Assembly: GCA_004335835.1 (NCBI GenBank)
Contig: RWJK01001720.1
Location: forward strand, 88,816 to 152,815
DNA: 64,000 bases
Reading direction: 5' to 3'
Origin: Scenedesmus sp. ARA3
Taxonomy: Eukaryota; Chlorophyta; Chlorophyceae; Sphaeropleales; Scenedesmaceae
Of the stretch, positions 2,919-63,367 are shown piece by piece (position 1 is the first letter of the stretch; each line of letters begins with the position of its first letter). Both the position numbers and the translations under genes were made by a program. The notes beneath the pieces were generated by a model that saw only the letters and a list, made by a program, of their open reading frames with translations, was not told the origin of the DNA and ran no database searches.

Positions 2919-4205
2919 ATGCAGCTGTTCAATCATGCCAGCAAGCTTCAGGCACGCTGGGTGACCACTCGAGCCCAGGTGCTGCTGCCACCCCATTTAG
3001 CATCATGCGTCAACAGCAACCGCAACAGCAGCAGCAGCCTATCCCTCAGCAGCATCAGCCAGCTGCTGCATGCCCAGGTGCAGCCAGTCAGCTGCTGCAG
3101 CGGCAGCAGGCGCTGGCAGCACTCAATAGCGGCAGCAGCAGCAGAGGCAGCAGAAGCAGCAGACGAAGCGGCAGCTGGCGGTGCTGCAGCAGCAGTAGAA
3201 GGAGAGCAGCAGCTTGCAGGAGACTGGACCGTTCTCAATTTCTACCACCTGGTGGACCTTGCAGACCCTGAGGAGGTGAGCAACAGGTTTCATGCTGTTG
3301 TAGTTTGACTGTGCTGTGCTGCAGCTGCAGTGCAGAGTTGGGCAGCAGTAATGCCACAGCAACGCAGCATCCAGCATTAGCCGCTTGGCTGTGCACCTGA
3401 TGTGCGTGCTAGGCTGCATGGCTGGCACCAGCAGAGCACAGCAGGCCACTAGCAGCAGCATGCTGCAGCTGCCACTGCTGTTTGTGGCCGTATGCATATG
3501 CAGCATGCAGCAGCAGCAAACTTCTACCACCTGTTGGACCTTGCAGACCCCGAGGAGGTGAGCTGCCAGTTGTGGGTGTGCTGGTCTGTGCGAGTTTTGT
3601 GGTGCTGGTCTGTGCTGCAGCTGCTGCAGGGCCAGGCAGCAGTGCTGCCACAGCAACACAGCATCTAGCAACACGGCTGGGCTGCGCTACAGCAAAGAAC
3701 AGCTGCTGGGCAGCAATGTTGCCACAGCATACAGCACCAGCTGCACGGCTGTGCACCGCTGCTGCCTGTGCTGGAGTGCATGCCTGGCTGGCACCAGCAG
3801 AGTAGCCATCTAGCAGCAGCAGCAGCAGCATGAAGCTGCTGCCGCTGCAAATCATGGTGGTAGCAGGTACAGCGAGCAGCAGCCAGGAATCTGCACATGC
3901 AGCATGCACGCAGGGACGTATGCTTGCTCTTGTTGTGGCACCACTGGCCATTCAGTGACATGGTAAGCTTGTGACTAGCTGACTGGATGCTGTCATGGCA
4001 CGACAGGGGCAGTGGCGCCATGACCACAGCAGGTATGGCTCTGCATGCAACAGGTTGCAACAGGTTGCGGCACATGTATAAGTACTGCTGCCTGGTGCGT
4101 TATGCTGCGTCTGACGTCCCTGCAGATGCTGGCGCGCCACAAGGCCTTTATTTTTCGCAATGGCCTGGACTCCATCTTATTACTCAGTTGAAGGAGATTT
4201 GACGC

Positions 4206-4255
<50 letters not shown>

Positions 4256-4541
4256 AATGTGCCTGCAGATGCTGGCGCGCCACAAGGCCTTCATTTCTAG
4301 CAATGGCCTGGACTCCATCTGCGGCCGCATCTACATCAGCGCCCAGGGCATCAACTGCCAGGGAGGGGGGCTCAGGGAACACACAGAGGTGCGCAGCAGC
4401 AGCAGGAGCAGCAGCCGCAGCAGCTGCAGCGGCAGCAGCAGCAGCAGCAAGCGCAGCAGCGGCAGCAGCAGGGCCAGTGTATGTTTTTGTTGTGGGGCAT
4501 CAACTGCCAGGGAGGGGGGCTGCGGGAGCACACAGAGGTGC

Positions 4542-4574
<33 letters not shown>

Positions 4575-6171
4575 CATGCGTGCATGTCACACAAACGCAG
4601 TGTTCGTGGGTGTGGTGTTGTTTGTCAGCAATGGCTGCGAGTGGTCAGCGGGAGGCTTGACAGCAGCAGCAGGGCAGGTGGCATAGCTGCAGCAGCAGCG
4701 GCTGCAGCATGCACTGTTTGTGCGGAAGAGCTGCAGCAGCAGCTGCAGGGCACCGGCCGCACCTGTAGGGGGACATGGGAGTTGTCAGCAGGCATGAAGA
4801 TGCCTGCGGGCATTGACTTCAGTAGCAGCAGCAGCAACAGCAGGTGCATCATCCGCTTGTCTGGTGCCCGCGGCGCGCTTGGTGCATGCTGCTCCATGTG
4901 AAAACCTGCGATGGCGATGCTCTTCTGCTGTCGCTTTCCTTTTACAGGCATACGTTGCCTGGGTGGCGGCCCAGCCAGAATTTGCCGGCCTCTTCCACAC
5001 GCTGTGGCCCACAGCAGGCCCTGCCTTCCCCAAACTGTGCCTGAAATACAAACCAAACCTGATCAGCGTAGCAGGAGGCATGGCTGCCATCCCCTGCACG
5101 CATAATCGCATCTGCCAACACCCCAAGCTGCTCCCCACCAACCTGTTTTTTGCTGTATTCCGCCTTGTGCTTCTGGTGTTGCAGGCATATGTGGCCTGGG
5201 TGGCTGCCCAGCCGGAGTTTTCCGGCCTCTTCCACACGCTGTGGCCCACAGCAGGCCCGGCTTTCCCCAAGCTTCGCTTGAAATACAAACCAAACCTGAT
5301 CAGCCTGGTGGGAGGCATGGCGGCCATCCCCTGCACGCAGATCCACATCTGCCAACACCCCAAGCTGCTCCTCACCAACTGGTTCTCACCTGTATTCCGC
5401 CTTTTGCTTCTGGTGTTGCAGGCGTATGTGGCCTGGGTTGCCGCCCAGCCAGAATTTGCCGGCCTCTTCCACACGCTGTGGCCCACAGCAGGCCCCGCAT
5501 TCCCCAAACTGCGCCTTAAATACAAGCCCAACCTGATCAGCTTGGCAGGAGGCATGGCAGCCATCCCCTGCACCGACCCAGCCATGAGGGCGACGCCGCT
5601 GCAGCCGCAGCAGTGGCGGGAGAAGCTGGATGCGGCCGATGCGGTAAATGCGGCGGTGGCGGCGGGCGCTGAGGTGCCGGTGGGTTAGGCACACATGCTG
5701 CGCGCATGCTGCCTGCGAGAGCACGTGTGTGATTGGTCAGACGCATGGCAATGTGGCAGCATGGCAGTGTGTGCTGTTTTCTGTCCGTCTCCAAGTCGTT
5801 GCGAACTGGTACACAGATTCAAGTTTCAGTTTGCACATGCGATTTCATGTAGCGTTTCTGTATCTGATGTTCACACCTCCGTGCGTGCTGGCGGCCTGGC
5901 GGCACTGTGCTGTGTGCCGGCAGTGCCCCGCCGTGCAGCCTTGTGCTGTAAGCCGCTGCGCACCACATCACTCCTGCTCCTGCTTACCCGGCACTGACAG
6001 CACCTCGAGTGACCAGGGTCAATGAAGGGCGGTGCATGCAGCATGGCTGCCCTCGGTTGTCGACACTTTGGCATGCTGCTCTGCTGTCCTAGACAGGCTT
6101 CTAGTACATGCAGTGATGTACGTAGCTGTTTCTCTCCATGCGCGCTTACGCAGCTGACAACACTTTTTGCA

Positions 6172-6210
<39 letters not shown>

Positions 6211-6636
6211 GCAAGCGCGTGGTGGTGATGGACCTGCGCAACGACTACGAGTGGGACGCGGGGCACTTCGACTGGGCCCCGCGGCCAGATGAAGAAGTGT
6301 TTGCAGGTTGGTTGGTTGGTTGGTCAGTCAGCGACAGTTGCTTGTCAATGCTGTGTGCTGTGTTCTTGGTCACAGTGGAACGCCGGGCACTTCGACTGGG
6401 CCCCGCGGCCGGATGAAGAAGTGTTTGCAGGTGTGTAGGTGACTGCTGATGCATTCTCGGTGGTGCTGATGCATGCTGATACATGCTAATGCTAATGCTG
6501 ACGATGTTGCTGGTGCTGCTGCGGATGTATGCTGATGCTGATGCATCCTTGAGCGCTTTGACAGGGGCTTGCGTGGTTATGTGGGCTGCTTTGATTGGGC
6601 GTCTTCGCGTGCTGCACACCCATGTGACTGCCACCA

Positions 6637-6679: not shown

Positions 6680-8144
6680 AGAGACGCCTGGAGTAGGGGA
6701 GCACAGTGTGCCCACCCCACTCAAAGGCACCGACCCAGAGAACACAGAGGTCATGGTGAGACGCATTTGGTTGCTCACAGCAGGGCTACTTGCGTGTCAT
6801 GGCCGCGGTTGGTGCTGTTGGCTTAGTGGATCATCTTTCTTAGCTTGCCCTAAGATTTCAACGAACATAAGCCCCTGCTTCTCTCATGCGGCGCGTGCAG
6901 CACCTGCCTATCCATAATCACTTCTCTGGCCACATGCCCTGCAGCAAGCCTGTGTACAGCCTAAACTGCCTGCGTTCTCACGCAGACTTACTGCACTGGC
7001 GGCATCAGCTGCGATGTGTACAGTGCGCTGCTGCGCTGCTGTGTTCCCGCTCCCACATCGTCCGCCTGCATTTTCTGGCTTTCTCGTGTGCAGATGTACT
7101 GCACTGGCAGCATCAGCTGCGATGTGTACAGTGCGCTGCTGCGCCAGAAGGGCTGCAAACCCTCATGTTTGTTGCGTCTAATTGAACATGCACACTTCTA
7201 TGTTTTGCCGCAGATGTACTGCACTGGCGGTATCCGCTGCGACGTGTACAGCGCGCTGCTGCGCCAGAAGGGCTTCAAGAACCTGTACACGCTGCACGGC
7301 GGCATCCAGCACTACCTGAAGGAGGAGGGCAGCGAGCACTGGCAGGGCAGCCTGTTCGTGTTTGACGGGCGCATGGCAATTAATCCCGCTCTAGACGGCA
7401 AGCTGCAGGAGGGTGAGTACTGCTGTCAATTGTTCGATGTGACGGCTGCAAGCAGTGTGATGCTGAGATGTGTTTTCTGACGGGCGCATGGCAATTAATC
7501 CCGCGCTGGACGGCAAGCTGCAGGAGGGTGAGTGCCAGGGGTTCGCACATCGCATATCGTTAATGGAGAAATAGAAGGCTGCACGCCCCCACATGAGCAG
7601 GTGTGTAATTGTGTGGACCTGGACATCCCATAGCTGCTCCTCACCAGACTAGACGTGTCAAGCTTGATCTGCTGTTGAAGTTGCTGCCTGAAGAAGTCAC
7701 TCTCTGCCAGGGCTGAAGCTGCGTTTGTATCATGTGGCATGCTGACCCTGTTGCTTGCTGCCCCGCAAACCATGTGGTGTGCAGGTGAGGGCCTGCCTGC
7801 TGCCGTGCCCTGCAGCATGTGCGGCGAGGCGCCCGCTGCGCTGCCGCACGTCAACTGCGCCAACATTGACTGCAACGAGCTCTTCATCGCCTGCAACGCC
7901 TGCAAGACCAAGTGAGGCCGGCAGATTGTGCTTCGTTGGAAGGTTATGGTGCCACCTGCACTTGCTGCATGGTGGTGCAGTGCTTGCTGGCAGCTGCCTG
8001 GGAACGGACACATGTAGGGAATCACTAGGCGGCCGCTCACCATACGTGCCACAGTTTGCTGTTGCTTACAACACGCACAACAAGGCTTGTTGCTCCCCAC
8101 ACCCTGGGCTGTGCTTCTGACCCTGCCGCTGACACTGCTGCTGC

Positions 8145-10756: not shown

Positions 10757-13700
10757 ATGCACTGCAGACCAAACAGCAACGGCTGCAAAGCACTTGCAAC
10801 CCCTAGGCCTGTTGCAGCAGCTGCTGCTCGCAGGGGGCTGAGCACCATCACTCACGTTGCCAGGCCTAGCAGCAGAGCAGGCATGCCCAAGCGAGGAACA
10901 AACATGCCACCTGCTGTTGCAGTGGATACGCGCCTGGCAACTGACCAGAGCAACGGCACCGGCGCTAGCACTGCAGCGCAGGAGGTAAGCCATCTCCAGT
11001 GTTTCTGCAACCGCACCACACAGCAGCTGTAGTGCCAGGTTGTTTACATGTTCCAGCACCATAATTCCATCTGTTTCTGGAATTAATGCGAGTGTCTGCC
11101 TGGGCAACAGCAGCTGTCGGAGCTTTGTTTTGTTGCGCATTTGATGCGGAGCCTGAACAGCAGCCTCTGTCTGTCGAAACCTGCGCACTGCGCAGACATG
11201 GCATGTCTGTGCAAAAACATATATGCGCCTGATGTACGTGCAGCTGCAGGGTGGCGTCAACCTGGCTCATTGGCTGGTCAACTCGCCAGATGCAGCCAAG
11301 GATGACCTACAAAGCTACAGCCAGGGCTTCATGAACTTTTGGAAGCAGCAGCGCACTGACTACTGGAAGAAGGTTGCAACGGCAAAGCAAGCCTTTGAAG
11401 AAGAGCAGAAGGGGAGCGTCGGGGTGAGACAGCACCTGCGTAGCAGTCAGCATTGTGTGTGACGTCTTGCGCTGCTGAGGGGCGGCTTCACTGTGTATGA
11501 CAGCGCTGTGGGAGAGCAGCGCGTGCTCCTCCACCTAATGTGCTGCATCACAAAGATGTTTTTACTTACAGAGGCAGCAGGGTAGCGGCTGCAACAGCAT
11601 GCCATCCTCTTGTAACAAGCTGCGAAAATGAAGGTGGCCTGAGTCAACCATGGCAACGCCTTCAGGTGGCACATCATCAACTGCCAGCTGCCAGCAGCTG
11701 TGCTCAACAGTATTGGGTGCCAGCTGCTTTGCTGACCATCAGGCTGCTGCCTGGCGTGCCCTGTTACTTTTCCCCGTCGCCTGGTTTGTGTGTGCTGCTG
11801 CAGGCTGCAGACAAGCACTTCAGCCAGCCGCCCCTGCTGCTCTGCTGCCCCAGAGCTCCTGCGCTGCACCCCACCATGACCCTGCTGCCTGTCGCCCCCT
11901 GCCACTGTGTGCTGCCTGGGGGTGTGCGTGTGTGCTGCTGCTGCAGGCTGCAGACAAGCACTTCAGCCAGCCACCCCTGAAGCAGCTGCAGCAGGCGGCC
12001 TACACTGACAAGGACTTCATAAAGGAGGTGACGAAGTATGGCGAGATGGTGCAGGTGAGGGTGGCGAGATGGTGCAGGTGAGGGTGGCGAGATGGTGCCA
12101 GGGGGTGAGGCACAGTGGTTCAGGCTAGGGTTCAGGTTTTTACGTGAACACCGTTCACCACCAGATGGTGCAGGTGAGCGATGCGAGGCGCGGTGGTGCA
12201 GGCTAGGGTTCCAGATTTTGACGTGGAGAGAAGGTGGAAAGAAAGTGCATGTCAGGCTTGAAAGTTCAGACCTGAGAGTTCAGGGGGAAGAGTATGTGTA
12301 TGTCAGGGTTCATGCTTCAGGGTTCAGGGTGGAGAACTGGTGCAGGTGAGGCGGCACAGCAGGTCCAGCAGCAAGCAAGCAAGCGATGCAACCTGCAGCT
12401 TTGTGCTACAGTCGAAGCTGAGAAGAGAGCAGTAGCACGCACTGCGCAGCTCGCGCCTTGAGCAGAGTGGTGGCGGCACCGCAGTTTCAGCGCAGCCATC
12501 TGCCAGGGAAGGCGGCGCGCCAGCAGCCTCTTTCATAGAGAAATGAAAACCAAAACGCTGCCTGAACTGTGCAACACTTGTTGCACTGCAGTAAAGGGTG
12601 TGGCCTGGCAGGCAGGTATCACATGCTTTCCAAAAGCCAGTGGCTCTCAACCAGCATTTCTACACACACTACACATATAAAATGCAGGCTGTGTATGACA
12701 CGCTTGAGACAAAGGATGAGCTGATAGGGCAAGCACAGGCCTGGCAAGGGCCTGAGAAGCCCATCAACTGTTATTGCACCACCATGCATGTGTGCAGGCT
12801 GTGTACGACACGCTTGAAACGAAGGACGTGTACAGCCGCTTCTTTGGCGGCTGCATGGCTGGCGCGATGGTGAAGGGGTCCACGCTGGGCGCCAACAACG
12901 GCGAGTTCATTAACGTGGGCGAGGCGGCAGCAAAGTACACGGTGCGTGCAGCAGCAGCAAGCGCAATGCACATTGCAAGGTCAGGCGTGTGCAGAGCGGA
13001 AGTTTACTGCTGTAACAGCCCATGAGGCAGGCGCATTGTGCTCCTCTGTCGTGCTGGGCCGCTGCTGCGGATGCCGAGCTGCTGTGTGCTGGCTGGCACT
13101 ATGCTGCTAGCATTCAAAGGGAGGGAACCGAACGTAGTTAGCCCACATATTCCTCACTCTTGAAACCACAACGTTACGTTTTGCTGCTGCAGATTGTGAA
13201 ACAGATGCAGGCTGACTCTGGCGACTACAAGCTGGTCATCAAGGAGGGGCGCAACTACGTGGGCTTTGAATCAACAATTTGAGGCTGCCTTTGTGACTTG
13301 GGTTCGTGCTGCAGATTGTGAAGCAGATGCAGGCTGACTCTGGCGGCTACAAGCTGGTCATCAAGGAGGGCCGCAACTACGTGGGCTTTATTGCAACAGG
13401 GCCGGCACACGCTGCGCTGCCAGCGGACAGCAGCGAGGTTGACATTGCGGTGGTGTTCAGGGGCACCATCACCACCGACGAGTGGCTGCAGGTGCGCAGC
13501 AACAGCAGCGGCCGTCTCAGTCTTGCAGGATTCACTGAGTGCATCGGCTGCGTGAGTCTTGCAGGACTCTCACTGAGTGCATCGGCTGCGTGAGTCTTGC
13601 AGGACTCTCACTGAGTGCATCGGCTGCACTGAGGGTGTGGAATGAAGCACAAGCGCTGGGCCTGTCATCTGTTGTACTGCCGTTGCATGTGCATTGCCTG

Positions 13701-16180
13701 TGTCATGGATGCCAAGGTGCTGCAGGTGCACTGGAACATTGCTCTCCACTCAACGTGCGCCTCTCTTCCTGCCTGACCTGCTTGCGTTCCTCTGCATAGG
13801 ACGCCAAGGTACTGCAGGTGAACTGCAACACCTTTCATCACTCAACGTGCTTCTCCCTCCCTGCCTGACCTGCTCGTCCAATGTGTGTTGCTGCAACAGG
13901 ACGCCAAGGTGCTTCAGGTTCGCTGGAACAACGGCAGCGGCATCGCGCCGAGCCCCCGCGTGTTCCTGCGGGCCTGGCCCTTCCAGCCCACCGCAGGGGC
14001 CTTCACAGGCACACTAGCGCTGAGCTTGCTGGCTCTGTGGGCGGTGCAAATGCACACGGGTGCGCTGCCTGCAGGTAAGCAGGCCATTGTGCAGTGCTGC
14101 GCGCGTGCTTCAATGTATGTGCATGCATTGAGCTGCAGATGCCCGCGACGTGTGCATGCACTGCTGTGAAATGCCGTGCCCAGGCAAGAGCGGCTGCAGC
14201 ATGCAAGCCTGCTGGCGCATCACAGCGGTTGGCACCCATCGCTTGATGTGCACTGCTGCAGCTACAACGCTGCGTGCCATGCTTGTAGGTGTGGTGGCAG
14301 TTGACGCCTGGGTCAAATCCTGGCTCAGTGCTGCGGCTGGCTCCAGCCCCAGCTTCCTGCAAGGCGCCATCACCTCAGCAGCCACTTCCTGCAAGCACTA
14401 CTAGGCATCACCAACACTGCTGCTGCTGCTACATCAAGCACTGCTGTCCATTGACTTCTACATTGCTGCTGCATCTTATCTGCCCCGGCTATGTATGCAG
14501 CGGTGGTTGCAGTCGACGCCTGGGTGAAGTCATACCTCAGCGCAGCTGCCGGCTCAGCCCCCAGTTTCCTGCAAGGCGCCATCACCTCAGCAGCCGCTTT
14601 CCTGCAAGCCCTGCTGGGCATCACCATCAACGCAGACAGCGGGCCACTCCCCTTCAGCCTGGCGCTTGCATCAGCAGCTTGGGTGGTCAACGGCTTTGTG
14701 CAGGCTCGAATTGCACACCCCAACCATTGGCTGAGGGACTTGCGCAGCTTGGTGATGGCGCTGGGGCCATGGCTGCTGTATGGAGCGCAGGTGCTCGGTG
14801 ACACGCTTGTCAGCTCGTTTGCTGGGCTGAAAGGGGATCCATTGGTGTCGTATGGCTTCAAGCAGATGTACGCAGGTGGGTTGCTTGCTGTGCTGCTGCG
14901 CTGTGCGGTGTGATTTGACCTGAAGGTTGGTTGGGGGCCAACCCGCTGGTGTCCCACGGCTTCAAGCAGATGTAAGCAGGTGGAGTTCCGCTTATGCATA
15001 TTCCTGTGCTACATACATTGTAAAGTGTGGTGTGGTGGTGTGTGGCACGGTGTAGTGCATTGGCATTCAATCAGAAAGCGCGAGGCAGAGCAACGCACAT
15101 ACACTGCAGGGGTGGAACTGCACCGCTGTGCTGCGCAAATCCAGACGCTCAGAGAATAAACATTTGAGCACCAGCTGGTTCTACAACCGTCTCCATGGAG
15201 ACATATGGCCAGATGTGTATTGTGTTCTGCTGCGCAGATGCCAAGGACCGTGACAATGTCACGGAGCAGCTGCCGGCCAGCCCCCGACTGACCATCCTGA
15301 CTACCCTCACGCAGCAGCTGCAGATGCTCAGCAGCGAGGGCAAGGTAAGGCACACTGCATGGCGGTCAAACTTTGACTTTGACTAAGTTGACTGACACAC
15401 TTGCTGCACAGTTGAGATGTGGCCCAGCTGCCGCATCCTCAGCAGCATCCCAAAGGGCTGAATGGCGATACAAGTAGTAACCGTGCACGCATTGACATGT
15501 ATGTGTCACTCCCTTGCCCGCAAAACTCAGTGCGGGACAGGCAGTGGCAGGGCACCCCGGTCTGCTAGTCGCCGATCACTATCTCCTGTTGCTCTGCTGG
15601 TCTGGGCTGGTGGGGAGCAGTATCTTGATGACAGGCAACAGCCTGGACCTATTAGCAGACAGGCCCACCTACTAACCCAGGTTTTCAGTGGTACTAACCC
15701 AATAGAATTCTACTAACCCAGGTCGAGTTATGTGCCATTAGCGAGACACAGTAAGGTTAGTAGAGTGAGCTGGGCTGCTACTAAGCCTGGCTAAGGGGGC
15801 ATGGCGTCGGTTCAGCATGCCCTTGTGCTGTTCGGAGGAAGCCCAGACAGGCTGCTGAGCTTCAGCATGCCCTTGTGCTGCTCGAAGGAAGCCCACACAG
15901 GCTGCTGAGCAGCGCCTGCTTTGCAGAAGCCCTCTGCAGACAGCAGCTGCCTTCAACTTCCAACTTCCTTGGACGACTCTTTGCTTGCTCTCTTCTGTGC
16001 TGTGCAGACTGTGCGCAGCATCACTGTGACTGGCCACAGCCTGGGTGGGGCGCTGGCCAGCTTGTGTGCATACGACCTGTCTACCACAGTGGCGGCAGCT
16101 CTGGAGGCTGCAAAGGACCCCAAGGAGAGCAACGAGTACAAAGAGTTGCAGGTGGGTGCTGGACAGCCCCGCCTACAACC

Positions 16181-16211: not shown

Positions 16212-19046
16212 GCAGCCGCAGCAGCAGCCTTGCGGGTTATTTAACGCCCGACATGAGTGAAGCTCAGCTCAGTAGTACAGGGTGGCTGCGGATTTCGGCA
16301 ACTTGCAGGCTGTTTGAGCACTTGTTGTCTTGTCCCCTCATGCTGTAGACAGTAGACGTATACCTGTGTATGCAGTCTTGTACATCAGAGTGGACCATAT
16401 AGCCCCTGCACCCTGCAGGCGATGAGGATCTCCTCGCTGGATGAACCACATAATCGTATCTCGAGCTACTGCTGATTATTTGCAGCAACACGGTGGTTTG
16501 CACAAGCAGCGCAATCACTTGCCGAACTACGGACTGCTGCTGCAACTTGCCGCTGCTGTTGCTTGCAGGCCAAGCCAGACCTGTACTCCCAGACAGCAGC
16601 GCAGCGCCTGGAGCTCATGTCAGCCCTGTGGCACATCAAGCAGCAGCGCGGGCCAGAGGCAGTGCCGCTGGTGGCCGGCATCACCTTTGCTGCGCCGCGC
16701 GTGGGCAATGCGGCATATGCGAATGCCTTCAAGGCCCGCTCGCTGATCGACCCACTGGCAGTGAGGGAGCCGCTGTTCAATGCCGACGGCTACCACAGCA
16801 GCGCGGTGCGCGTGAACTCTTTGTTCAATGTGCTGCTGCTTGCTGCGTTACAGTGCAAGCTGTGGTTGAGGCACTGCACGCACACTGCGGGCATGAGCTG
16901 GAACAGTTGAGGATTACGTCTCACATCCACAACTTACCCCCACTGCAAATTTTTTGTATCTGAATACTCTTCTACTGCCTCTGTGTTGTCTATGCCGTGC
17001 TGCCGTGCCGCTTGCAGCTGAGCTGGCTGGGGTCTGTGTTCAGGGACCGCATCTGGCTGCTGGCGAAGCACCTGTGGTTCAGCGTCGGTTCAGGGTCGGC
17101 ACGCAAAAAGCTTATCACTTCTCCTGTGTGTTGCAAATCTGCTGCTCTGCCGCTTGCAGCTGAGCTGGCTGGGGTCTGTCTTCAGGGACCGCCCCTGGCT
17201 GCTGATGAAGCACCTGTGGTTCAGGGCAGGCACGCAAGACATGAAGAATGACGCCGCCAGCAGGGCAGCTGAGCAGGTAAGGTGCAAACAGCATCAGCAG
17301 GCAGCTGCCAAAGCCGCACAGCAGCCACTGCTGACATCAAAAACTTCAGACCATGCACATGCGTGTACATGTGCCAGCAGCATGTTTGTGCTGCAGATGC
17401 ACCAATGCGAAGCTGCGGCAGGAGCAACCCAGACAAGCATATTGGGCGCCTGGCACTCTCTGTAGTGCTGCTCAGCAGCTGCACTCTTGCAGACATATAC
17501 TGTATGCACCAACTCGCCACACGCCTGCGCTGCGGCCCTGTTTCCTGTGCAGCTGCTGCAGAAGAAGACTGACGCAGCAGCAGCCCCAGTGGTGGGCGGC
17601 ATGCTGCGGCTGGTCAACGTGCATGACGTGGCGCCTGACGTGCCCTCAGCAGTGCGCGTGCCCTTCTTCAGGTGGGTGTGTACTGCAGGGACATCGTAAT
17701 GCGTACAGCGTACGACACTGCTGTGTTCTGCTTTAATGTCGTCTGCAGTGCGCGTGCCCTTCTTCAGGTTTGTGCACTGCAGGGGTGTCGTACTGTGTAC
17801 AGCGTACGACACTGCTGTGTTCTGCTTCAATGTCGTCAGCAGTGCGCGTGCCCTTCTTCAGGTGGGTGCAACTGCCGTACTGTCGTGCTGTGCACGTGTA
17901 CGGCAAATCCTATACGGCATTCTGCCGTGCGTGCTCTCAGCAGTGCGCGTGCCCTCCTTCAGGTGCGCGTGCTGCGCTGCCGTGCTGTGCATTGCCGTGC
18001 TGTGTATTGCAGCACTCTGTGCTATAATACTGCACTGTGGTTCCTGCCTGCGCTGCTGTCTCATGCACTCAGGATCGTGCATGGTGATGGGCAGGAGCTG
18101 CTGTTCAACAGCCTGTTGCCATGTGTGTTATTTATGTCACTTTATTTGTGCCTGCGCTGCTGCCTCGTGCGCGCAGGTACGTGCACGGCGGCCAGCAGCT
18201 GCTGTTCAACAGCCTGATGCTGCTGCTGCCGCATGTCTTGCTGCTGCTTGATATTTGTGTTTCCTGCTGCTGCCTCATGTGCAGGTACGTGCACGGCGGC
18301 CAGGAGCTGCTTTTCAACAGCCTGGCGGTGCCCTACTACAGGGCAGGCCAGTTCACAGGGGCAGCCATTGGGGCCCGCCACAACCTGGAGGTGGGCCGCT
18401 GGGGTGTACAAGTGCATTGTGAACGTGTTATCACATAGTCTGTATGGCACGCAGCATGCGCTGTCTTTCCTGTGCTGGGCAGCTCACTGGGGCAGCCATT
18501 GGGGCGCGCCACAACCTGGAGGTGGGTCGCTGGCGTTTATAAGTACTTCTCTGTCCACCTGGTCATGTTGATGAGCTGTAAGTCACATGCACTGCGTGGC
18601 ATACAGCCTTTGCGGTGTCCTGCTGCCGTGCTGGGCAGTGCATTGGGGCGTTCATCAGGGTGCACAACCTGGAGGTGAGCGCCCAGCGTGTTGTGTTATG
18701 TTGCAAACGTAATGCTGATTTGTTGCAAGTCAAATGCGCTGCATGGCAAACACCCTAGCAGTACTCCTATATCCCCCAGCCAATAACAGACGCCAGACTG
18801 GCGCCCGTTGGCCCATGCCGCCTTGCCACGAAGTGTTTTCTATCATGCTGCAGCAATACCTGCACAGCATGGACCCAACGCGGCCCCAGGCGCTGGTCAA
18901 CAAGAGTGACGACGTGCTGCTGAGCATCTACTGCGTGCCCAAGTGCTGGTGGAGCCCCGTGCCCAACAGGGGCATGGTGTGCAAAAATGTGGACGGCAAG
19001 AGCGTGTGGCTGCGCAAGGAGCTGCCGGGTGATCTGCCAGGGCAGC

Positions 19047-19081: not shown

Positions 19082-19146
19082 GTCAGCTGTCGCAGCGTCT
19101 GCCAGAGCAGCAGCAACAGCAGTGGGTGTGCCGGCTGTCGCCTGCC

Positions 19147-19238
19147 CAGCTGCTGGTGGAGCCCAGTGCCCAACAGGGGCATGGTGTGCGCGAATGTGGA
19201 TGGAGGAAAGGTGTGGCTGCACAAGCAGCTGCTCTAAG
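19147..19238 (+). repeat. copy of lipase terminal coding segment, with its own stop
   Basis: It repeats CWWSPVPNRGMVC and a KVWLHKQLL version of the C-terminus, then stops (TAA at 19236). It lies 66 bp after the assigned stop codon. The assigned C-terminus ends in a poly-Q run, so this copy could represent the older C-terminus or an alternative one. Confidence 0.85.
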
Positions 19239-19249
19239 GCCTGCCAGGC

Positions 19250-19281
<32 letters not shown>

Positions 19282-24703: not shown

Positions 24704-24744
<41 letters not shown>

Positions 24745-25150: not shown

Positions 25151-25204
<54 letters not shown>

Positions 25205-41300: not shown

Positions 41301-42439
41301 GTTTGTGGGAGTGCACACTGGTTGGTCATGCGATGCATGCGCAGGTGTCTGCAAGCTTGCTGTTGTGTGTGCTTTGCCCTGCAAGCGCTTTCATCGTTCA
41401 TCGGCAGCGTGACACGTTGTGCCTGCGTCGCTGCCACTGCTGCTGCCTGCCGCCTCGCCTGCTGCTGCTGCAGCCGCCGCCGGAGCTGGCTGCGGTGCTG
41501 TCTCAGCTGCAGGCCCGCCAGCCGCGGCTGCTGGCCGACACTGCCGCCATGGCTGGCGCGCTGGAGGCACTGACGGTGACACCCCGGGAGGCGTGGGCGG
41601 GCCTGCTGGGCGAGCTGGGGTTGGAGGTGGACCGCAAGCTGCTGGCGCTGCAGGTAGGCGGTTTAAATGGTTTGGAGATTTGACATGGAGTTTGGTGGCA
41701 GCTCAGGAGGTATGTGGGGGGCTGCTGGGGGAGCTTTGGTTAGAGGTGGACCACAAGCTGCTGGCGCTGCACGTGGGCGCTGCACAGTGCACAAAGCACA
41801 TTTCTGCTGCTGTACAGTTCTCTGCTCCCTGTGGGCTGTGTGGGGAAGCTGGGGTTTGCCATCTGCAGTAGCTGACATGCTGCAAACTGATGGCACGCTT
41901 CGCCCGCTGTGCGGTGTTGTTGTGCTGTGTGCAGGCTGATGCGGCGCGGCTGGTGCAGCAGGGCCTGGGCAAGGAGCGGCGCATTGAGCTCATCACAAAC
42001 AGGTGCAGCGGCTGCTGCTGCTGCCGCTGGCATGATGGCAAAAGCGCGCAATCTGCTGATAATGTATTGCCTCATGCAACGCAGTGTGCAGCCCTTGCAG
42101 CGGTATGTTCCCTTCACTTGCTCTATTGCTGTGTCCTGGCCCTGCAGCAGGTTGCATGTACTACATGCATCTGCCAAGGGCTCTCGCGCTACCGTGTATA
42201 TTTCGGTGTGATGCAAAGTAATGCATGTTACGCGGCTGCTGCCTGGCTGCTCCCAGGTACCACACTGTGATGGCGCCCGTGCGCTCGCTGCTGCAGCAGC
42301 ACCTGGCAGCAGCAGAAGCAACACCCCCGGGCTCACCGGACGAGGCTGCCTTCAGGCAGCAGGTACTGCCGCAGCTGCACAGCCTGCTGGCAGCGCTGCA
42401 GCAGCTGCCGTCTGAGCTGCTGCATGCAGTGGAGGACCC

Positions 42440-48400: not shown

Positions 48401-51400
48401 GTGGCGGTGTGGTTGATGTGTTGAGCAGTAGCACGCCTCTGCCGCTGGACCTTGAGCAGTACCGGCCGCTGGTGTTTGTGCTGCAAGTGCTGCACAGCCT
48501 GCTGCTGTCGCCTTGCTCTGATGATCATGCAGCAGCAGATGAGGCAGCAGCAGCAGCAACTGATGACGAAGGAGCAGCAGCAAATGATGTGGCAGCAGCA
48601 GTAGCGGCAGCAGCAGCGTCAGATGGGCTGCTTGCGCGGCTTGAGCAGCTGCTAGTGCCTGCAGTGTCAGGCTGCCTGCTGCAGCAGCTGCAGCAGCAGC
48701 TGAGCCAGCTGCAGCGGCACCTGCAGCTGCTGGGCAGTGAAGCAGCTGCAGTGCTGCAGCGGCGCAGCGCAGCAGCAGGCAGCATCCAGCTGCAGGCAGA
48801 TGCGCCAGCTCAAGCCGGCAGCAGCAGCAGCCATGGCCCTGGCTTAGGTGGCTTGGGTGATGCCTTGGAAGGTGATGGTGGGCTGGAGGGTGGTGGTGCT
48901 TGGGATGCCCCTGGCTTGGTGCCGTTTGACGCATTTGACTCGAGCCTTGCTGGGGCCGGTATGCTGCTGGAAGATGATGACGGTGAGGAGCTGGGTGGGG
49001 CTCTGGAGGACGCAGAAGATGCAGCAGCAGCAGCAGAGGGCTTGGAAGAACATGTTGATGAAGAAAAGCTTGATGATGATGAAGAGGGCCTAGAGTGGCT
49101 GCTGGAGGAGCAGCAGGCCCAGCAGGCAGCAGCAGCAGCAGCAGCCAGCAGTGACCCACAGCATGGTGCAGCAGCAGCAGCGGCAGCACTGCCGGAGCTG
49201 GTTCCTTTTGCTGCCTTTGACCCCTCACTGCCAGGAGCAGGGGCAGTGCTGGAAGGCGGAGATGACGATCTGCTGCTTGGTGGATCCTTGGATGTGGATG
49301 ATGGCAGCTTGGAGCCAACATTGCAGCAGCCAGCGGCAGATGATTATAACGATCAAGATGTTTTTGCACCGCAGTCTGAGGCCGGCGAGTGGCAGGTGCT
49401 TGGGCAGGAGCTGCTGTCGGTGGGGCTGCAGCGCGCGCAGCAGCTGCACAGCCAGCAGCAGCTGGCAGCGCTGCAGCAGGCAGGGCCCAGCTGTGAGTGG
49501 CAGCAGCAGGCCTGGCTGAGGCAGCTGGCTGCCTTTGAGTGGCTGTGGGGAGACCTGCTGCAGCAGCAGCAGCAGCAGCAGCAGGCGGGGGTCCAGCAGC
49601 ACCTCACTGTACTTGTGCAGGCTGCTGCTGTCTCCCTGGGCATGCCAGCTGGAGGTTCGAGTGATGGTGAGGGGCCTGGGGGGAATGTGACGGCGGCTGC
49701 TGTTGCTGCTGCCGCTGCTGCTGCGCTGGCGCCTGGTGACGCTTTCCAGTGGCACTTCAGCCAGCTAGGGCTGCTGCAGCTGCTGCCGCAGCACCCCGAC
49801 CAGGCCCCTGACAGCAGCTGCACCAGCCTGCCTCTGCCTCACCTACTGGGGCCAAACTCTCAGCATCCAGACGGCAGCACAACTGCTGCTGCTGGTGCTG
49901 CTGCTGGTGGTGCTGGCAGCAGTAGTGAGTTGCGCATGCCCGGGCGTAGAGAGCTGCTGGCAGCATGGCAGGAGGTGTCGGAATGCCTGTCAGGGCTGGA
50001 GGCTGGCACGGCGGCGTGGCAGGAGGCTGCCGCTGCTGCTGCTGGCGGCGTAAGGGAGGCGGTGGCCAGGCTGGCAGCAGCAGGGGGTGTGGTGGTGGGG
50101 GACACTTCAGTGTGCTTCAAGGTGAGGGGCTGCAAGCAGTTAGAAACAGGGAGGATGTGGCAATGCGTGGTGGTGTCATGAGGCTTCTTGCGCGTCCTGC
50201 AAGTAGCGATTTGTCAAGCTTAATATGGTATGCTGCAACCAGGCAGCTTTTTCATGCACAGTGTGGCGTCTGTGCCCACTATGACTCTACTAACGCCAAG
50301 CATCTGAGCAATGCAGCGCACTGCCTTTGTAGCCCAACCAACGTCTTGTGTCGCGTGGTGCCTGCCCTTCAACTGCTGTCTGGGCTGGTCACTCGCAGAT
50401 CTCCACCACTCATTCTGACCTCTGTTGTGCTGGATGTGCGTGTGCGTGTGCCTTCATGTGCTGTCTGGGCTGGTCACATACACAGTCCGTCAAAGACACA
50501 GTCCGTTGTCTCACTATTTCTGCAGCTCATGATCTGCAGTGTGCTCTGTTGTCCCGCACCCGCCCCTGCAGGTGCTGTCAGGGCTGGTCACACGCAGCCG
50601 CCACTGGGCCTCGTCTGCTGCCGGGCTGCTGGCTGGCGTGAGCCGGCTGGGGGAGGCGGCCCTGCAGCTGGAGTTCAGCAGGAGGGGCCGGCTGTGGGCG
50701 CCAGGTGCGGCACACTAGCAGCAGACAAGGCAGCTGTAGATAGCTGTAGATATTGTGAGTTCGTAATACATAGCCAGTCGCTACTAATATCACACAACAG
50801 CAGCAGGCGGGGCTGGCTGTGGGCGCCAGGTGCGGCTCGGCTTGCGACAGGCTTCAGTCAGCGCATCTGACGATGAACGCTTACAGATCAGATATGAATG
50901 ACAACTCCATGCAGCAACAGCCCATCGTGCAAGGTGTTATACCAACATGTTGCTGCTGACCCCTGCCTCTGTTGATGTGCTTGTTCTGTTCTGCTGCCAT
51001 GCAGGCATGCCTGAGGGCGTGGATCAATTTGTGTTTACTGCCGCGCTGCTGCTGCTGCTGCTGCTGCCGCTAACATCTGCTGCCACTGCTGTTGATGTAT
51101 GTGCTTGCAGGCATGCCTGACGGCGTGGATGCATTCCAGGGTAACGCCTCGCTGCTGCTGCAGCTGCGCAGCACAGCCGCCGCCGTGGCAGCAGCAGAAG
51201 GCGAGGCAGCAGCAGCCGAAGCTCTGCTGGCCTCATCACAGGCGGCAGGCCAGCAGGCAGAAACAGCAGCAGATGAGGCAGCGCAGGAAGAGGCAGCAGC
51301 AGAGCAGCAGCTAGCGCTCAAGACACCTGCAGCACTAGCTAGGGCGCAGGCACTGACAAATGCGTTAGGTCCTATGGTTGATTCTGCTGAGTCAGCACTT

Positions 51401-51751
51401 GCGTTAGTAAAAGGCGGCACCGGCAGCACACTGCATGCGCTGCAGACGCTTGTGGAGAGGAACTCTGCGGCGCGTGACCTGGCTCCCATCACGAGTGATA
51501 CGCTGGCGCAGCATGGCAGGTGTGTGGTGGTGCTGCAACGGCTGCGAGGCATTGGTGCTGCTGCTGCAGCAGGCTTGCAAGAGGCCCTGCTGCTCAACCA
51601 GCAGCAGCAGCAGCAGCATGAGGCGCAGGGCGGCGAGCAGCAGCAGCAGCAGCAACAGCAGCGGAGGTTGCTGGAGCTGCTGCTGCAGCACATGTCGCCT
51701 GCGCTGCAGGGCGTGAAAGATGAGCTGCAGGAGCTGGGCCAGGTGAGGGCT

Positions 51752-51793
<42 letters not shown>

Positions 51794-55953: not shown

Positions 55954-56762
55954 CCGCCTCCTGCTGCTCCTCCGCCACCAGCCGCAGCTGCTTGCACCTG
56001 ATCTTGATCAGCGCCAGCAGCCGATCCTCCGCCTGCAGGTGCATTTCTGGCGCTGTCATCGACAGCTGCGCCAGCACCCTCACTGTGGCAGAGCCCTCGT
56101 TGCGCAGGCTGTGGGAGAAGGCCGCAAACAGGCCCAGGTGGTGCAGCTGCGTCAGGCGCGTGAAGTTGTCGGGCATGGACTTGAGCCGGTTGAGGGACAG
56201 GTCCAGCAGCGTGAGTGACTGCAACAGCAGCAGCATCAGCAGCAGCAGCGTGAGGTGGTGCAGCTGTCAAGCACGGCAGAGCCGGGGTATGGTGTGCATG
56301 CGCACATGCAGGCACGCACGCAGACACACCCACACACCCACCCAGAATTTTGGACTTGAAAACCCAACTCATGCCGTGCTTAAAACACCCAGCCGCCCAC
56401 CTGCAGCTGCGCCAGGCTGTCCGGCAGCTCCGTGAGCAGGTTGTTGGAGGCGCGCAGGCTGCGCAGCTGCGTCAATCCTCCAAGCCCCTCCGGCAGGCAG
56501 GGCAGGCTGTTCTCGCTCACGTTGAGCTTGCGCAGCGTGCGGCCCAGGCTGCCGATGCTTGCAGGAAGCTCGCCCAGCAGGTTGCATGACAGGTCCAGGT
56601 GCTCCAGCTGCAGCAGCAGGAGGCACGACGGCAGCGGCAGCAGCCACAGCAGCAGTGGCAATGATGAGTCACAGGGTCGCAGGCAATAGTGAGGCACAGC
56701 AGGTTGCAGGAGAGGTCCATGCGCTCCAGCAGCAGCAGGAAAGTGGGAAAGATGGCAGCAGC

Positions 56763-56796
<34 letters not shown>

Positions 56797-58161
56797 GCAG
56801 CAGTGACAATAGGGGATGTTGATGCTTGCAGGGAGCTCTCCCAGCAGGTTGCAGGACAGGTCCAGGTGCTCCAGCTGCAGCAGGACAGCGGGGGACATGG
56901 CAGCAGCAGTGGTGGTTATGGTGAGACACACGTGGCAGGCAGTAGTGAGGCACAGCAGGTTGCAGGACAGGTCCAGGTACTCAAGCTGCGCAGGCAAGTG
57001 GGCAAGATGGCAGCAGCAGCAGGAGCAGCAGCAGCAGCAGTGGCGATGGTGAGGCACATGAATGCCGATGCTGGCAGGGAGCTCGCCCAGCAGGTTGCAG
57101 GACAGGTCCAGGTGCTCCAACTGCAGCAGGACAGCGGGGGAATGGCAGCAGCAGCAGCAGTGGCGATAGTAAGTCACAGGGTCGTAGGCAGTAGTGAGGC
57201 AAAGCAGGTTGCAGGACAGGTCCAGGTGCTCCAGCTGCAGCAGGAAAGCGGGGAAATTGGCGGCAGCAGCAGAAGTGGTGATGGCGAGGCACTAGATTGC
57301 AGTTGATGAGTCTGCTGCCCCATAGCAGTCTAACTAGACCGCCCTATGCGCATACCTGCACACCTGTTACTAGCATACCTGCACACCTGTTTAGTTCCAC
57401 ACGCTGTGCGCTCAGTTGTGCCCGCACCAGTTCATTCAAAAACATCCAAAAGCAGCATACTGAAGCCAGCTGGCCGCACCTGTGGCAGCATGTGCAGCTT
57501 GGCGCCGCGCAGCTCCTTGAGCCTGTTTGATGACAGCACCAGCGTGCGCAGGCCGGCCAGCTGGTGCAGGTCTGGCGGCACGCTGCTGAGCATGCTGTGG
57601 CTCAGCTCCAGCACGCATAGGTGGGCCGCAGGCAGCGCCAGGGCATGGATGGCGGCCTGCAGCAACAGGTGCACCATGGGATGTAACAACAGAGGGACGT
57701 GAGCATCGTAACATGCCTGACAGCAAAAGGCAAGGCCCGTATGTGGGGTGACTCGGAGGCAGAATGTTGCACAGAGGCTGTTTGAGTGTGCAGCAGGGTC
57801 CGTGACGGTTTATGTGTGAGGGTTGGGCGGCACGCTGCTGAGATTAGGACTGGATTCGTCTGAAGATGCCTGCGCACCTGCGCGCCGCTGTGGCTGCAGT
57901 GGCTGACCACCAGGTGCTGCATGTTGGGGAAGCGGCTGGGGCTCTGCGGCAGCAGCGCCACGTTGCTGTGCAGCGTCACGCACTTGACCGTGGCGTCAAA
58001 GCCGTCACGCCACGCACGGCACACGCAGCGCATGACCTGCGGGGGTGCAGCCGGCAGCGCAGCAGGGCGCGTGGTAGCGGTTGTCAGCAAGGTTGCAGCG
58101 GGTGCGTCGGTTGCTTTATAGTTCTCACAACCAATGCATGTGCTCGCGTGTCTGCACGCCT

Positions 58162-60002: not shown

Positions 60003-62331
60003 ATGATCACACTCCAGGCGCTGGCGCTGCTGAGGCCAGCAGTATCAGCTGGCAGGGCTACCCCTTCGCTGCTGAGGGCCTTTGCAGCAGCAGCAGCAGA
60101 CGGACCAAAGACAGCTACACCGCCGCCAGACACAGCCAGGGGTGCAACAGCAGATCTTGCAGACGTGTTCATTCCAGGTGGGTGCAGCGGCAACAGCAAC
60201 AGCAGGAGCAGCGTGCCGCACAGGAGGCACGCCTTGCATGTTGCTGCATGATTGCAGCAAAAGCAGCAGCAGTGGCAACAGCAGTCGTGGCAGGCATAGC
60301 ACCAGCAGCTTTGGTCTGGGCAAGGTATGCTACACGTTGCAGCAGGTGCTGCAGAGCAGGTGCTCAACCTTACGCTTTGTACTGAGGAGCGCACGCAAAA
60401 CTCCTGCGAGGCACCCAAACAAAGTGCAAGGATACTGCAGCAGGCGCTGCAAGCCGTTTCCAGTGGTCCAGGTTGCTTAAATAATACAACTCACTTGCCC
60501 CACTGCTGTGCTGTGTGTTTGTTTTTTTGCTTGCAGAGCCAGTGGACCAGGTTTCACTGGGGAAGGTGCAGATCATGGAGCCAATCTTCCAGTGCGTGCT
60601 GCTGCTGCGGCGGCTGCTGCTGCTGCTGCTGCTGCCGCTGTTCTGTGATGCATGTTGCGTCAACTCAAAGCAGATGTTAAGGCTAGGCAGCCAATGTGCG
60701 ATTAATTGGCAGTGCGCGGACTTAATGCAGCTGTACAGGCTGGGCAGTAGTGTGCAAGTCAACCGGCGGGCTGGTCTGCCAGAATAGCAAAGCCGTTTGC
60801 TGGTTTGGCAGTTGTGTGCTGCTGTCGTCTGCATGTACTTCCTAGATATGGCAGCAGTCCGATCACACAAAGTTCACTGAGCTGCTGCTGCTGCCGCTGC
60901 TGCTACTATTTCAATGTGCTGCAGGGACTTGGGGGGCAAGATGCGTTTCTCTGGTGAGCGTTACTGCTCAAGGTTGTGATGTCTTCAGCATATGTGCTTG
61001 CACAGCAGCTGCACGGCAGTGGCTCCTGTGAAATCAGGGTGCAGATAACCTATGTACCCAAGCTTGAGAGCGTGCATCACCTGCAGCAATGTCAATTTTC
61101 GACACATGGGTGGCCGCTGCAGCATGACGCAAGTAATCGTCCAACCACTATCTTGCTCTGCTGGCTGGCTTACACACGTAACGTTTGATTTTTCTCTCAA
61201 CACCGCAGTGTGCTGGTTGCTTGCGCAGGCCAAGTGTCCACTGTGAAGTGCTTCGAGAACAACCCGCTTGTGCGCAAGGTGGGTGCTGTTGAGCATGCTG
61301 CAAACATAGCTCAGCAGCAGTCCACCGGCAACCAGCTTGCAGCTCTACTGGGTGGTGCAAGCATACTGGAACAAGTTGGCAGTGCAAGCACATGCACCAG
61401 TGTCACACTGTCCAGCAAGATGCAGCAGATGAGGCTAGGCACACATAGTAAACGTTCAGCTACTTTTCTCTGCTGCCACATACCCGCCCTGTTCTTCCAA
61501 CACCCCACCGTGCTTTGCAACTGCACCGCGTTGCACTGTGTCCAGGCATTTGAGCAGCCAGGCAACGGCCGCGTGCTGGTTGTGGACGGCGGCGGCAGCA
61601 AGCGCTGTGCACTACTGGGTGACAACATTGCAGAGATGGCACACAAGAACGGCTGGAGCGTGAGTGGCAAGCTAGCGCGCAGAACCGCAGCCGCAGCAGA
61701 GCCGCATATGTTTCGGCTGCCTTATTAGTAGTAGCAGCAATGCAAGCAGCACTCGCAGCTCTCACAGCAGCAGCAGCAGCGCACGCAGCAGCAGCAGCAG
61801 CAGCAGCAGCAGCGGCAGCAGCAGCTACACTGGTGCCTTGGTGCATGCACAGCCACTTGATGCTGACCGCTGCTGGTGGTCATGCTTTGTGCGCAATGCA
61901 GTGCATTCTCAGTCTGACCCATGGTGGCGGCTGCGCTGGCACAGCACCCTGAGATATGGCACGCTCCGCACAGCACACACTATGAAATAAGCAGCCCCAC
62001 CTGCATCCTGCCCCACTTCCTTCTCATGCTCCCACCCTGCTCCCCACCCTGCACCCCACCTTGCACCACATCCACCACATCCCACCCTGCACCCCACCCC
62101 CGCCCCCTGCAGGGTGCCATCATCTATGGCTGCATCCGTGACAGCGAGGACATCAGCGAGATGCCGCTGGGAGTGAAAGCCCTTGGCACATACCCCCTCA
62201 AGTCCTCCAAGCGTGACGTGGGGCTGGCTGACGTGCCTGTGACCATTGCTGGCGTGACCGTGGAGCCTGGGGACTGGGTGTATGCTGACAGGGACGGCGT
62301 GCTCGTCAGCAAGGAGGAGCTGAAGCTGTGA
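60003..62331 (+). CDS. RraA-family protein (4-hydroxy-4-methyl-2-oxoglutarate aldolase-like)
   Basis: Exons 60003-60177, 60537-60591, 60925-60953, 61229-61278, 61546-61659 and 62113-62331; all phases match and give 213 residues. An N-terminal R/A-rich extension ([20 protein letters not shown]) looks like an organelle targeting sequence. The family core follows in order: [69 protein letters not shown] joined to [29 protein letters not shown], and [17 protein letters not shown]. The CIRD Arg/Asp pair and the DGGGS and NGW motifs are those of the catalytic, metal-binding RraA/HMG-aldolase fold. In plants and bacteria members cleave HMG or decarboxylate oxaloacetate; RNase E regulation is not expected in a eukaryote. 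Exon 3 is only 29 nt. Confidence 0.9.
61770..61815. repeat. CAG microsatellite in the last RraA intron
   Basis: A nearly pure CAG run in the 5' part of the intron between 61659 and 62113. Confidence 0.93.
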
Positions 62332-63367
62332 GCTGCAGATGTCAGCTGCTAAGGACGAATTTGCATTAGTGCAGCAGGCATACTATGCTCTCAGAGCTGT
62401 AGTGACTACAGCTGTGTAGCTGACAGGGACGGCGTCCTTGTCAGCCAGGAGGAGCTGAAGCTGTAAGCTGACAGGGACAGCGTGTTTGTTCACTGAAAAG
62501 GGCAGATTGGGGACTGGGTGTATGCCGACAGGGACGACGTTCTTGTCAGTGAGGAGGAGCTGAAGCTGTGAGCTGAGTTGTCATTGCATGCTGTATTTCC
62601 ATGGTGCAAAACACATATCGTGCATACTGATCATGTTGATGATGATGATTGTGCATGCGCTGAGATGGCCATAATGATGCATTGCTGGTCATGTGGCAAG
62701 TCTGCTGGCGCGTGCGGCAGCAGCAGCAGCGCTGCTCCAGCTTGAGGCGCCCATGTGCAGTGCTCTGCAGGCACGTGCCGCTGCCCCGGATGACAGGTTC
62801 ATATGCCATGTTCATTGCTTGGTGCTGCTTCAAACCGGGTGTGTTGCTGATGGCTTGGTGAGGTGGAAATGATGCCATTCCAAGATGTGACAATAACGTG
62901 ATCTGCGCTGCAATCTTGTTTGTAACACAAAACAGGCGCAGGACCATATCTGAACCGCACTGGGACATCTGCGGTTGTGCACCATGCCATGGCCATGATG
63001 GTGACTCACCCGTCGGACGGGGTCCCCCGTTGTGCTTCTTCATCTTGTGCATGCAGAAAATGCATACCCCGGCATCCAACGGATGTACTCAGAGAAGCTG
63101 TTTCCAGAAAGTGCATACTTGTACGCACGCAAGCTTGCCAAAGTGCAACATGCTGTAACATCGACGCGGTGTTGGCTGTGTTTGCATTCATAACATGGCA
63201 TGCATGTGTGATTCAGGTGATAGGAAATGAAGAAAAGCTTTCCATACAGTTTGGTGGTGTTGAAAAACACCAGTTTGGGTTGTGGCTTGCTTGACTCACT
63301 GCTGCTGCCAGGGAGCTAGAAGCCCCACAGGCAGCAGCAGCAAGACAAGTAGCAGCAGACCAGCTGC
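62332..63367. other. no gene recognised; contains two RraA C-terminal copies
   Basis: No supported ORF apart from the two short copies at 62419-62571. TGTAA, the usual green algal poly(A) signal, occurs near 62921, well downstream of the RraA stop. Confidence 0.55.
62419..62571 (+). repeat. two copies of the RraA terminal coding segment, each with a stop
   Basis: [18 protein letters not shown] (about 62419-62465) and [23 protein letters not shown] (about 62510-62571) repeat the last 15-20 codons of the gene after its stop at 62331. Neither has its own acceptor. Confidence 0.9.

Follow-up and report, generated by a model that had tools for sequence, protein, structure and literature searches.

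Local direct copies of exon edges in introns of Scenedesmus sp. ARA3 and a tentative route of intron growth by short tandem duplication

Intron gain by tandem duplication and duplications made during break repair are already known as single cases. Small tandem duplications from break repair were reportedly described by Vaughn and Bennetzen in 2014. One account (PMC8355091) sees the cause of small tandem duplications in breaks and not in a sequence target, and a study of the potato RdRp gene reports a duplicated intron-exon structure with a further 83-bp duplication in the gene's first intron (PMC4974935). Here, a 64-kb stretch of DNA from Scenedesmus sp. ARA3 (contig RWJK01001720.1; the window) was analysed, in which introns of several predicted genes hold nearby partial copies of the adjoining exon ends (exon-edge copies). 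A literature search, made mostly without subscription papers, found neither a description of exon-edge copies at such density, a density taken from this one assembly, nor an uncoupled likeness of their exon-derived and intron-derived halves.

The surrounding assembly (87.3 Mb, 1567 contigs) was used for whole-assembly matching. The comparison sample was 20 arbitrarily placed 10-kb loci of the same assembly, chosen regardless of repeats, though solely on contigs that had surfaced in a kinase search. A two-strand gene finder was trained in this analysis on 264 kb (window and loci) and learned the donor consensus CAG/GTGAG and the acceptor consensus CTGCAG/G (slash, splice point). All introns counted are predicted ones, with exons of at least 40 nt and introns shorter than 1.5 kb. 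Hand-picked exon chains for a lipase gene (15 predicted exons) and a rhodanese gene (8 predicted exons) were stop-free. The lipase model (627 aa query) showed 98% identity to Tetradesmus obliquus OEZ85_009243, and the rhodanese model (249 aa query) 95% identity to OEZ85_009244 of the same species, which places this genome in T. obliquus or very close to it. The lipase piece 18013-18114 is probably itself a copy of the following exon's start, and rhodanese exon 7816-7911 has the wrong frame in the model chain, judged against the annotated T. obliquus protein.

When the window was compared with itself at E <= 1e-6, 61 matches resulted; 59 of these lie within 4 kb and 2 are farther apart. Among the near matches 58/59 were direct, and the single inverted one was a palindrome matching itself. 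Dinucleotide-preserving shuffles, one for each of six window chunks (the first 60 kb) and each of the 20 loci, gave zero matches in all 26. When the 20 loci were searched on both strands, near direct repeats were found in 12/20 and near inverted ones in 0/20. Of the 63 predicted introns of the window, 28 contain a nearby copy, in direct orientation, of one of their flanking exon edges. A preliminary description of this DNA had reported such copies as widespread, in 25 of 50 introns, and the independent models agree with it. The total of 63 is inflated because some of the predicted exons are themselves copies; the gene finder called copies as exons at 4436-4537, 5185-5307, 13193-13258 and 28267-28335. 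This is a caution for annotation, since gene finders may take exon-edge copies for exons.

In the 20 loci, flanking-edge copies were found in 27/217 predicted introns. The distribution was clumped, with 27/110 introns in ten loci and 0/107 in the remaining ten. Among the longest frames of the ten copy-free loci only 2 had a Pfam match; some introns there may therefore be unreal, and 27/217 may be an underestimate. Moreover, 16 light-harvesting (LHC) loci, several of them overlapping, were available, and one of them (L034), fetched for another purpose, holds three edge copies. Local direct repeats, not all placed on exons, are present in LHC loci L023, L025, L027, L030, L031/L036 (one place lying in two overlapping loci) and L035, and none were among the matches listed for the other LHC loci. 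The preliminary description had proposed a genome-level process that duplicates exon-intron junctions. Edge copies in 10/20 arbitrary loci and in L034 bear out the genome-level part, although the spread is uneven; a targeting of the junctions is no more than possible.

The copies in the window are given below (coordinates, strand, description).

3237..3883, +: two diverged local repeat pairs (71-73%) around predicted edge 3275
4085..4320, +: rhodanese acceptor side, copy 4085-4177 of the exon start (exon at 4269); intron part CTG-rich
4346..4573, +: rhodanese, copy 4495-4573 of the end of exon 4269-4388 (donor side); intron part CAG-rich
4942..5573, +: rhodanese, 237-bp units forming an acceptor array upstream of exon 5422-5679; it lies within one open frame (4798-5688), so a partly coding use may apply
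6250..6440, +: rhodanese, copy 6374-6440 of the exon end predicted at 6306 (donor side)
6981..7278, +: rhodanese acceptor side, copies preceding exon 7214-7412
7363..7533, +: rhodanese donor side, exon end 7412 and copy 7478-7533 (96%), reaching just 6 nt beyond the splice site
11787..11979, +: lipase acceptor side, copy 11787-11836 of the start of exon 11947-12054, with a weak likeness left between the intron halves
12683..12826, +: lipase acceptor side, copy 12683-12716 of the start of exon 12798-12941
13185..13389, +: lipase acceptor side, copy 13185-13267, 96% alike to the start of exon 13315-13491
14291..14629, +: lipase acceptor side, copy 14291-14416 of the start of exon 14501-14875
14843..14983, +: lipase, copy 14947-14983 of the exon end (donor side), decayed and containing a stop
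16998..17224, +: lipase acceptor side, copy 16998-17082 of the start of exon 17160-17276
17646..18324, +: lipase, exon end 17671 and the exon at 18285 with a run of ~95-bp units between them
18343..18544, +: lipase, copy 18474-18544 of the exon end at 18390 (donor side), with similar intron halves (z 5.8)
18933..19279, +: lipase 3' exon, accompanied by a diverged copy with CAG repeats
27579..28017, +: universal stress protein gene, three copies in addition to exon end 27637 in a donor array
28260..28456, +: universal stress protein gene, acceptor side, copy 28260-28341 of exon start 28382
33999..34165, +: SMG1-like gene, acceptor side, copy 33999-34048 of exon start 34122
41575..41779, +: SMG1-like gene, decayed copy 41694-41779 of exon end 41653 (donor side), with 9 nonsynonymous changes
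43487..43795, +: SMG1-like gene, copy 43741-43795 of exon end 43536 (donor side)
44048..44381, +: SMG1-like gene, ~131-bp units forming an acceptor array upstream of exon 44327
44593..44855, +: SMG1-like gene, two copies of exon end 44634 in a donor array
45604..45796, +: SMG1-like gene, acceptor side, copy 45604-45668 of exon start 45745
50676..50836, +: SMG1-like gene, copy 50801-50836 of exon end 50704 (donor side); among the matches listed for the assembly, the spacer has only itself
51000..51167, +: SMG1-like gene, decayed acceptor-side copy upstream of exon 51111
56550..57292, -: LRR gene with a weak F-box match, array of ~122-250-bp units around the exon ending at 56607
62268..62583, +: RraA gene, end of the coding sequence and two further copies, all ending AAGCT/GTGAGC or GTAAGC, donor-like

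Repeat clusters of the window and the loci were collected by a search for direct repeats less than 1.5 kb apart, so that their direction and locality are given by construction. Of 83 non-overlapping clusters, counted from the listing, 65 lie at an exon edge, 3 are exon-interior and 15 non-exonic. The window members include ordinary arrays or coding or low-complexity repeats at 316-540, 23994-24421 and 28478-30233. The smallest spacing was 90-159 bp in 61/83 clusters. The matching parts were separated by a gap of at least 20 bp in 48 clusters and lay head-to-tail in 35, with similar spacing ranges. When units of the observed sizes were dropped at random on the gene models, 18% fell inside exons, 27% on edges and 55% elsewhere. 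With exon-interior events removed, 33% edge events were expected and 65/80 were observed, indicating that persistence or a true edge preference is needed beyond geometry. Units this long wholly within exons would usually break the frame, and duplicates wholly within introns, which have no constrained partner, would fade. Edge-straddling ones would stay detectable, as the constrained exon would keep its half recognisable longer. A true preference for exon edges is also possible.

A splice site served as the anchor for 68 edges, of which 35 are donors and 33 acceptors; in the alignments of these copies, the site is of one kind in copy and source. GT was retained in 26/35 donor copies and AG in 30/33 acceptor copies; at the sequence level, therefore, the copies can be called decoy splice sites, as the preliminary description did. 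Mean splice scores dropped from the real site to the copy (donor 5.50 to 3.84, acceptor 6.39 to 4.75), and the real site outscored its copy in just 15/35 donors and in 24/33 acceptors. Unit lengths modulo 3 (23/19/26 for remainders 0/1/2) showed no frame preference, as expected if the copies are spliced out. In the freshest two-copy cases, the common stretch consists of exon plus mostly ~5-10 nt of splice consensus, and the inner ends of 40 listed copies, inspected by eye, showed no consistent motif. Donor arrays run in the order exon end, spacer, copy, spacer, copy and then unrelated intron, and acceptor arrays are their mirror image. Introns with a copy had a median length of 381 bp (n=55) and those without one of 268 bp (n=225), a difference of about one unit. 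This supports a lengthening of introns, short of proof, as long introns may simply give more room.

Copy and exon were compared outward from the splice site at the 68 edges. Identity was 0.88-0.95 over the 20 adjoining exon bases, 0.89-0.94 at the splice dinucleotide and 0.73-0.75 over the next four intron positions (0.54-0.65 for unrelated edges). It was 0.45-0.60 at intron positions 7-12, 0.42-0.45 at 13-20 and 0.30-0.41 at 21-45, compared with 0.24-0.29 in the unrelated-edge control from position 7 onward. For donors, ungapped identity was 0.51 at +9..+12 and 0.45 at +13..+20, compared with 0.27 and 0.25 for unrelated edges. Splice-anchored alignment of the intron halves gave z > 3 in 32/68 edges, and in our own reading of the list the values form a continuum rather than two classes. 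The likeness of the exon half and that of the intron half were uncorrelated (r = 0.09), while drift simulated with assumed indel rate, ages and exon rate (0.33) gave r = 0.78. At the 22 edges with an exon half of at least 93%, the intron half averaged 63% and was below 62% in 11, while simulated drift gave 92%. Plain tandem duplication followed by neutral drift was rejected for the uncoupled halves. Something keeps, or made, the exon halves alike; the exon may exchange sequence with its copies, or the duplication may have enclosed a spacer that is unrelated.

Arrays and spacers were also compared. In 7/8 arrays, pairs of intronic copies were 87-100% alike in the exon half, and the outermost flank resembled the spacers as random sequence does (30-55%); in the eighth (44327), the corresponding values were 69% and 57-64%. 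An earlier test of spacer versus outer flank in 28 pairs gave a likeness above that of swapped loci that 0/500 permutations reached, with local composition as a possible confounder, and z > 2 was found in 7/28 when the test was repeated with shuffles. For 13 spacers, the longest exact local matches were 8-15 nt compared with shuffled means of ~8-10, indicating no clear local source.

The coding character of 46 copies (835 codons) was then measured. There were 131 synonymous and 103 nonsynonymous changes (234 changed codons) and 8 gapped codons, stops were found in 5/46 copies, and frame-changing gaps occurred as well; a few of the copy reading frames, such as that at 43487, are doubtful. Random change would give a synonymous share of 27%. 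The bias was strong in some copies, with synonymous to nonsynonymous counts of 14:3 in lipase copy 14291-14416 (plus 1 gapped codon), 11:2 at 4942 and 4:0 in universal stress protein copy 28260-28341. Decay in the copies exceeds what would be expected of two functional alleles. Amino-acid differences in the lipase and rhodanese genes, polarised against relatives, were ~11 copy-derived, 1 exon-derived and 5 unclear (hand count, by eye). In L034, polarised by eye against paralogues, one copy carries three synonymous and one nonsynonymous copy-derived change; the other two have nonsynonymous changes, and one of these has a one-base deletion. Each covered exon is present once in two proteins annotated in another T. 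obliquus assembly (by eye).

The uncoupled halves together with the residual intron likeness speak for old tandem duplications in which the exon renews the exon halves; the 26/68 edges with z < 2 also allow for a duplication whose spacer never was related. Judged from the sequence, we put at nearly even chances, if slightly below, that short tandem duplications across exon-intron junctions, sheltered by splicing, lengthen introns, and that their exon halves are then renewed by exchange. Short direct tandem duplications, mostly of 90-159 bp, would arise genome-wide through break repair or slippage. Those straddling an edge would be tolerated, as splicing would use the exon's own site and discard the remainder. 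The survivors, an exon end with a second donor or acceptor as is seen in the introns, would have become intron material. Out-of-register exchange between copies could later have extended some of them to the arrays observed, and such exchange would keep renewing the exon-derived half from the functional exon. The intron-derived halves, without a constrained master, would drift until little likeness remains, and likeness would thus end near the splice consensus. A rather doubtful form of the idea is that exon ends spread to neighbouring introns and are kept alike by a process bounded by the consensus. This may be a repair route that copies exon ends, or an exon-anchored homogenisation in which the functional exon would keep rewriting its intronic echoes.

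Several observations weigh against renewal by exchange. Exchange between copy and exon is something that we infer, and none was directly observed. The synonymous excess, 131/234, lies above the ~41-46% that our own arithmetic gives for a neutral copy facing a constrained exon; the surplus could come from mutation bias at GC-rich third positions or from birth from another allele. Some of the 26 edges without intron-half likeness are fresh. At L002 6541, the exon half is identical at 54/54 positions with z 1.6, which fits birth with an unrelated spacer equally well or better. Neighbouring units of several arrays have spacers about as alike as their exon halves (91% and 91% for the first spacer pair of L020 8840, 90% and 88% at L019 6924, 86% and 88-91% at 5422). 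Within these arrays the halves age together, as recent amplification of units would give. Moreover, CAG/CTG stretches inflate some z values, for example at 4269, 4389 and 19256.

The copies may instead have been gapped at birth, which we regard as rather unlikely. Repair or a template switch would have placed a copy of an exon end and its splice consensus in the intron close by, or duplicated that piece around new filler, and spacer and outer flank would never have been homologous. The 26/68 edges without intron-half likeness, and the 11/22 fresh copies whose intron half is below 62%, are as this predicts. In L002, a copy shows full identity over 59 bp between flanks that are unrelated; one L002 spacer and one LHC intron match only themselves in the 87-Mb assembly, and a query containing the spacer at 50705 had no match other than itself and its own exon edge. 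On the other hand, mean intron-side likeness exceeds the control over +7..+45 in donors and -7..-20 in acceptors, and likeness forms a continuum instead of two classes. Birth with a gap also leaves unexplained why the copied piece ends at the splice consensus.

Algae of this group can be diploid, and the second copy may have come from a diverged allele. Break repair would have copied edge and intron off the other haplotype with out-of-register joining, followed by decay. We consider this improbable. It would account for the synonymous excess (131:103), strong in some copies, and for the L034 copy in which 3/4 copy-derived changes are synonymous (by eye). The assembly of one T. obliquus strain is almost double that of another in size (PMC5552973), and Scenedesmus NREL 46B-D3 is termed likely diploid (PMC7955037); both count for this origin. 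However, fresh copies with 0-5% exon difference often have introns lacking likeness, and LHC paralogues with exon blocks only 85-93% alike still align over 1,024 mixed intron and exon columns at 77%. No second haplotype of the lipase piece was among the matches listed.

Slightly less probable still is an assembly artefact, in which contigs or haplotypes were joined with their overlap unmerged; the preliminary description had itself named haplotypes laid in tandem as what would undo it. Three of the random loci each contain 49-50 N letters, so parts of the assembly are scaffolded, and one published T. obliquus assembly, which may not be the present one, used 101-bp reads with gap filling (PMC5255914). 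By contrast, the 60 kb of window chunks contain zero N, arrays exceed two units, and residual likeness extends into the introns. The 103 nonsynonymous codons, the stops in 5/46 copies and the frame-changing gaps indicate that the copies are not both functional alleles, and a 1.27-kb lipase piece has a single listed match in the 87-Mb assembly. Haplotypes laid in tandem are therefore disfavoured.

That the copies are kept for function, as alternative exon ends or splicing regulators, is very improbable: splice dinucleotides are kept in 56/68, the real donor outscores its copy in just 15/35 and some copies change mostly synonymously, but unit length is indifferent to frame, mean splice scores are lower with the real acceptor higher in 24/33, stops and frame-changing gaps occur, and the annotated proteins of the other T. 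obliquus assembly hold each covered exon once. Alternative exons were rejected after the inner edges of 40 copies, read by eye for partner splice sites, showed none consistent. A splice-site-specific endonuclease, a transposon with very long target duplications and splicing intermediates as template were dropped; only the spacer searches bear on them.

Other repeats were noted in the window. At the RraA end (62320-62345), a strong donor-like GTGAGC overlaps the stop TGA, and one copy, with GTAAGC and TAA, retains both. At 23994-24421, six to seven head-to-tail 65-bp copies, 96% alike, start the long frame 24374-25813. At 28478-30233, the 3' part of the universal stress protein gene is amplified in units of ~271 and 504 bp, exon-like and intron-like mixed (81.7% over 1.3 kb). 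Runs of (CAG)n/(CTG)n are many in window exons and introns, densest at ~30-52 kb, with Gln, Ala and Ser tracts in the predicted proteins. A ~61-bp stretch at 52776-52836 recurs at 82-95% in 28 listed places on other contigs and had no Rfam match up to E 1; an Rfam scan of 51500-54500 gave 26 matches, none at gathering score. The ~490-560 bp stretch at 63239-63799, with 83-88% matches on contigs C1514 and C1073, is probably an interspersed repeat.

Among the LHC loci, L023:649-895 (C1476) is a 247-bp intron that four paralogous loci compared with it (two on C1476, one on C869, and L034) read through. It matches only itself in the assembly and contains an internal duplication spaced 89 bp; from the sequence comparison with these four loci, it may equally be a gain or a loss. 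One LHC intron start shows repeated AGGTGG. L025:1779-1989 is a head-to-tail 105-bp duplication in an LHC gene whose paralogue near 21-22 kb of C1476 is single-copy.

Intron lengthening and the origin of new splice sites are usually argued from few proven cases. If exon ends do spread to neighbouring introns by a process bounded by the splice consensus, introns would grow by accreting exon echoes with splice signals, which would be a standing supply of new splice sites and introns. Exon-edge copies of many ages would also permit a time series of birth, competition of like splice sites, decay and possible rewriting by the exon.

Compared with known systems, the copies share with introner elements the growth or gain of introns across many genes. 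One sequence family across genes was not seen, however, as the whole window has only 2 far matches, and three queries (two spacers and one LHC intron, a small sample) had no foreign match. Like mutually exclusive tandem exons, they are exon-like copies within introns. Unlike those, which are complete and frame-compatible with both splice sites, they are edge pieces truncated on the far side, with lengths indifferent to frame (23/19/26). They are direct, local and small, as break-repair tandem duplications are, but plain tandem duplicates are alike along the whole unit, and here the exon and intron halves are uncoupled. As in tandem genomic duplication, the extra sequence is a direct local duplicate (58/59 direct, 26 shuffles empty). 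As in the potato RdRp case (PMC4974935), splice signals are carried along in a direct tandem duplication. Intron gain by tandem duplication creates a new intron, in most cases out of an exon piece that bears AGGT. In the present DNA, introns already in place would lengthen, the copy abuts a splice site of its source's kind, and the event is common rather than single.

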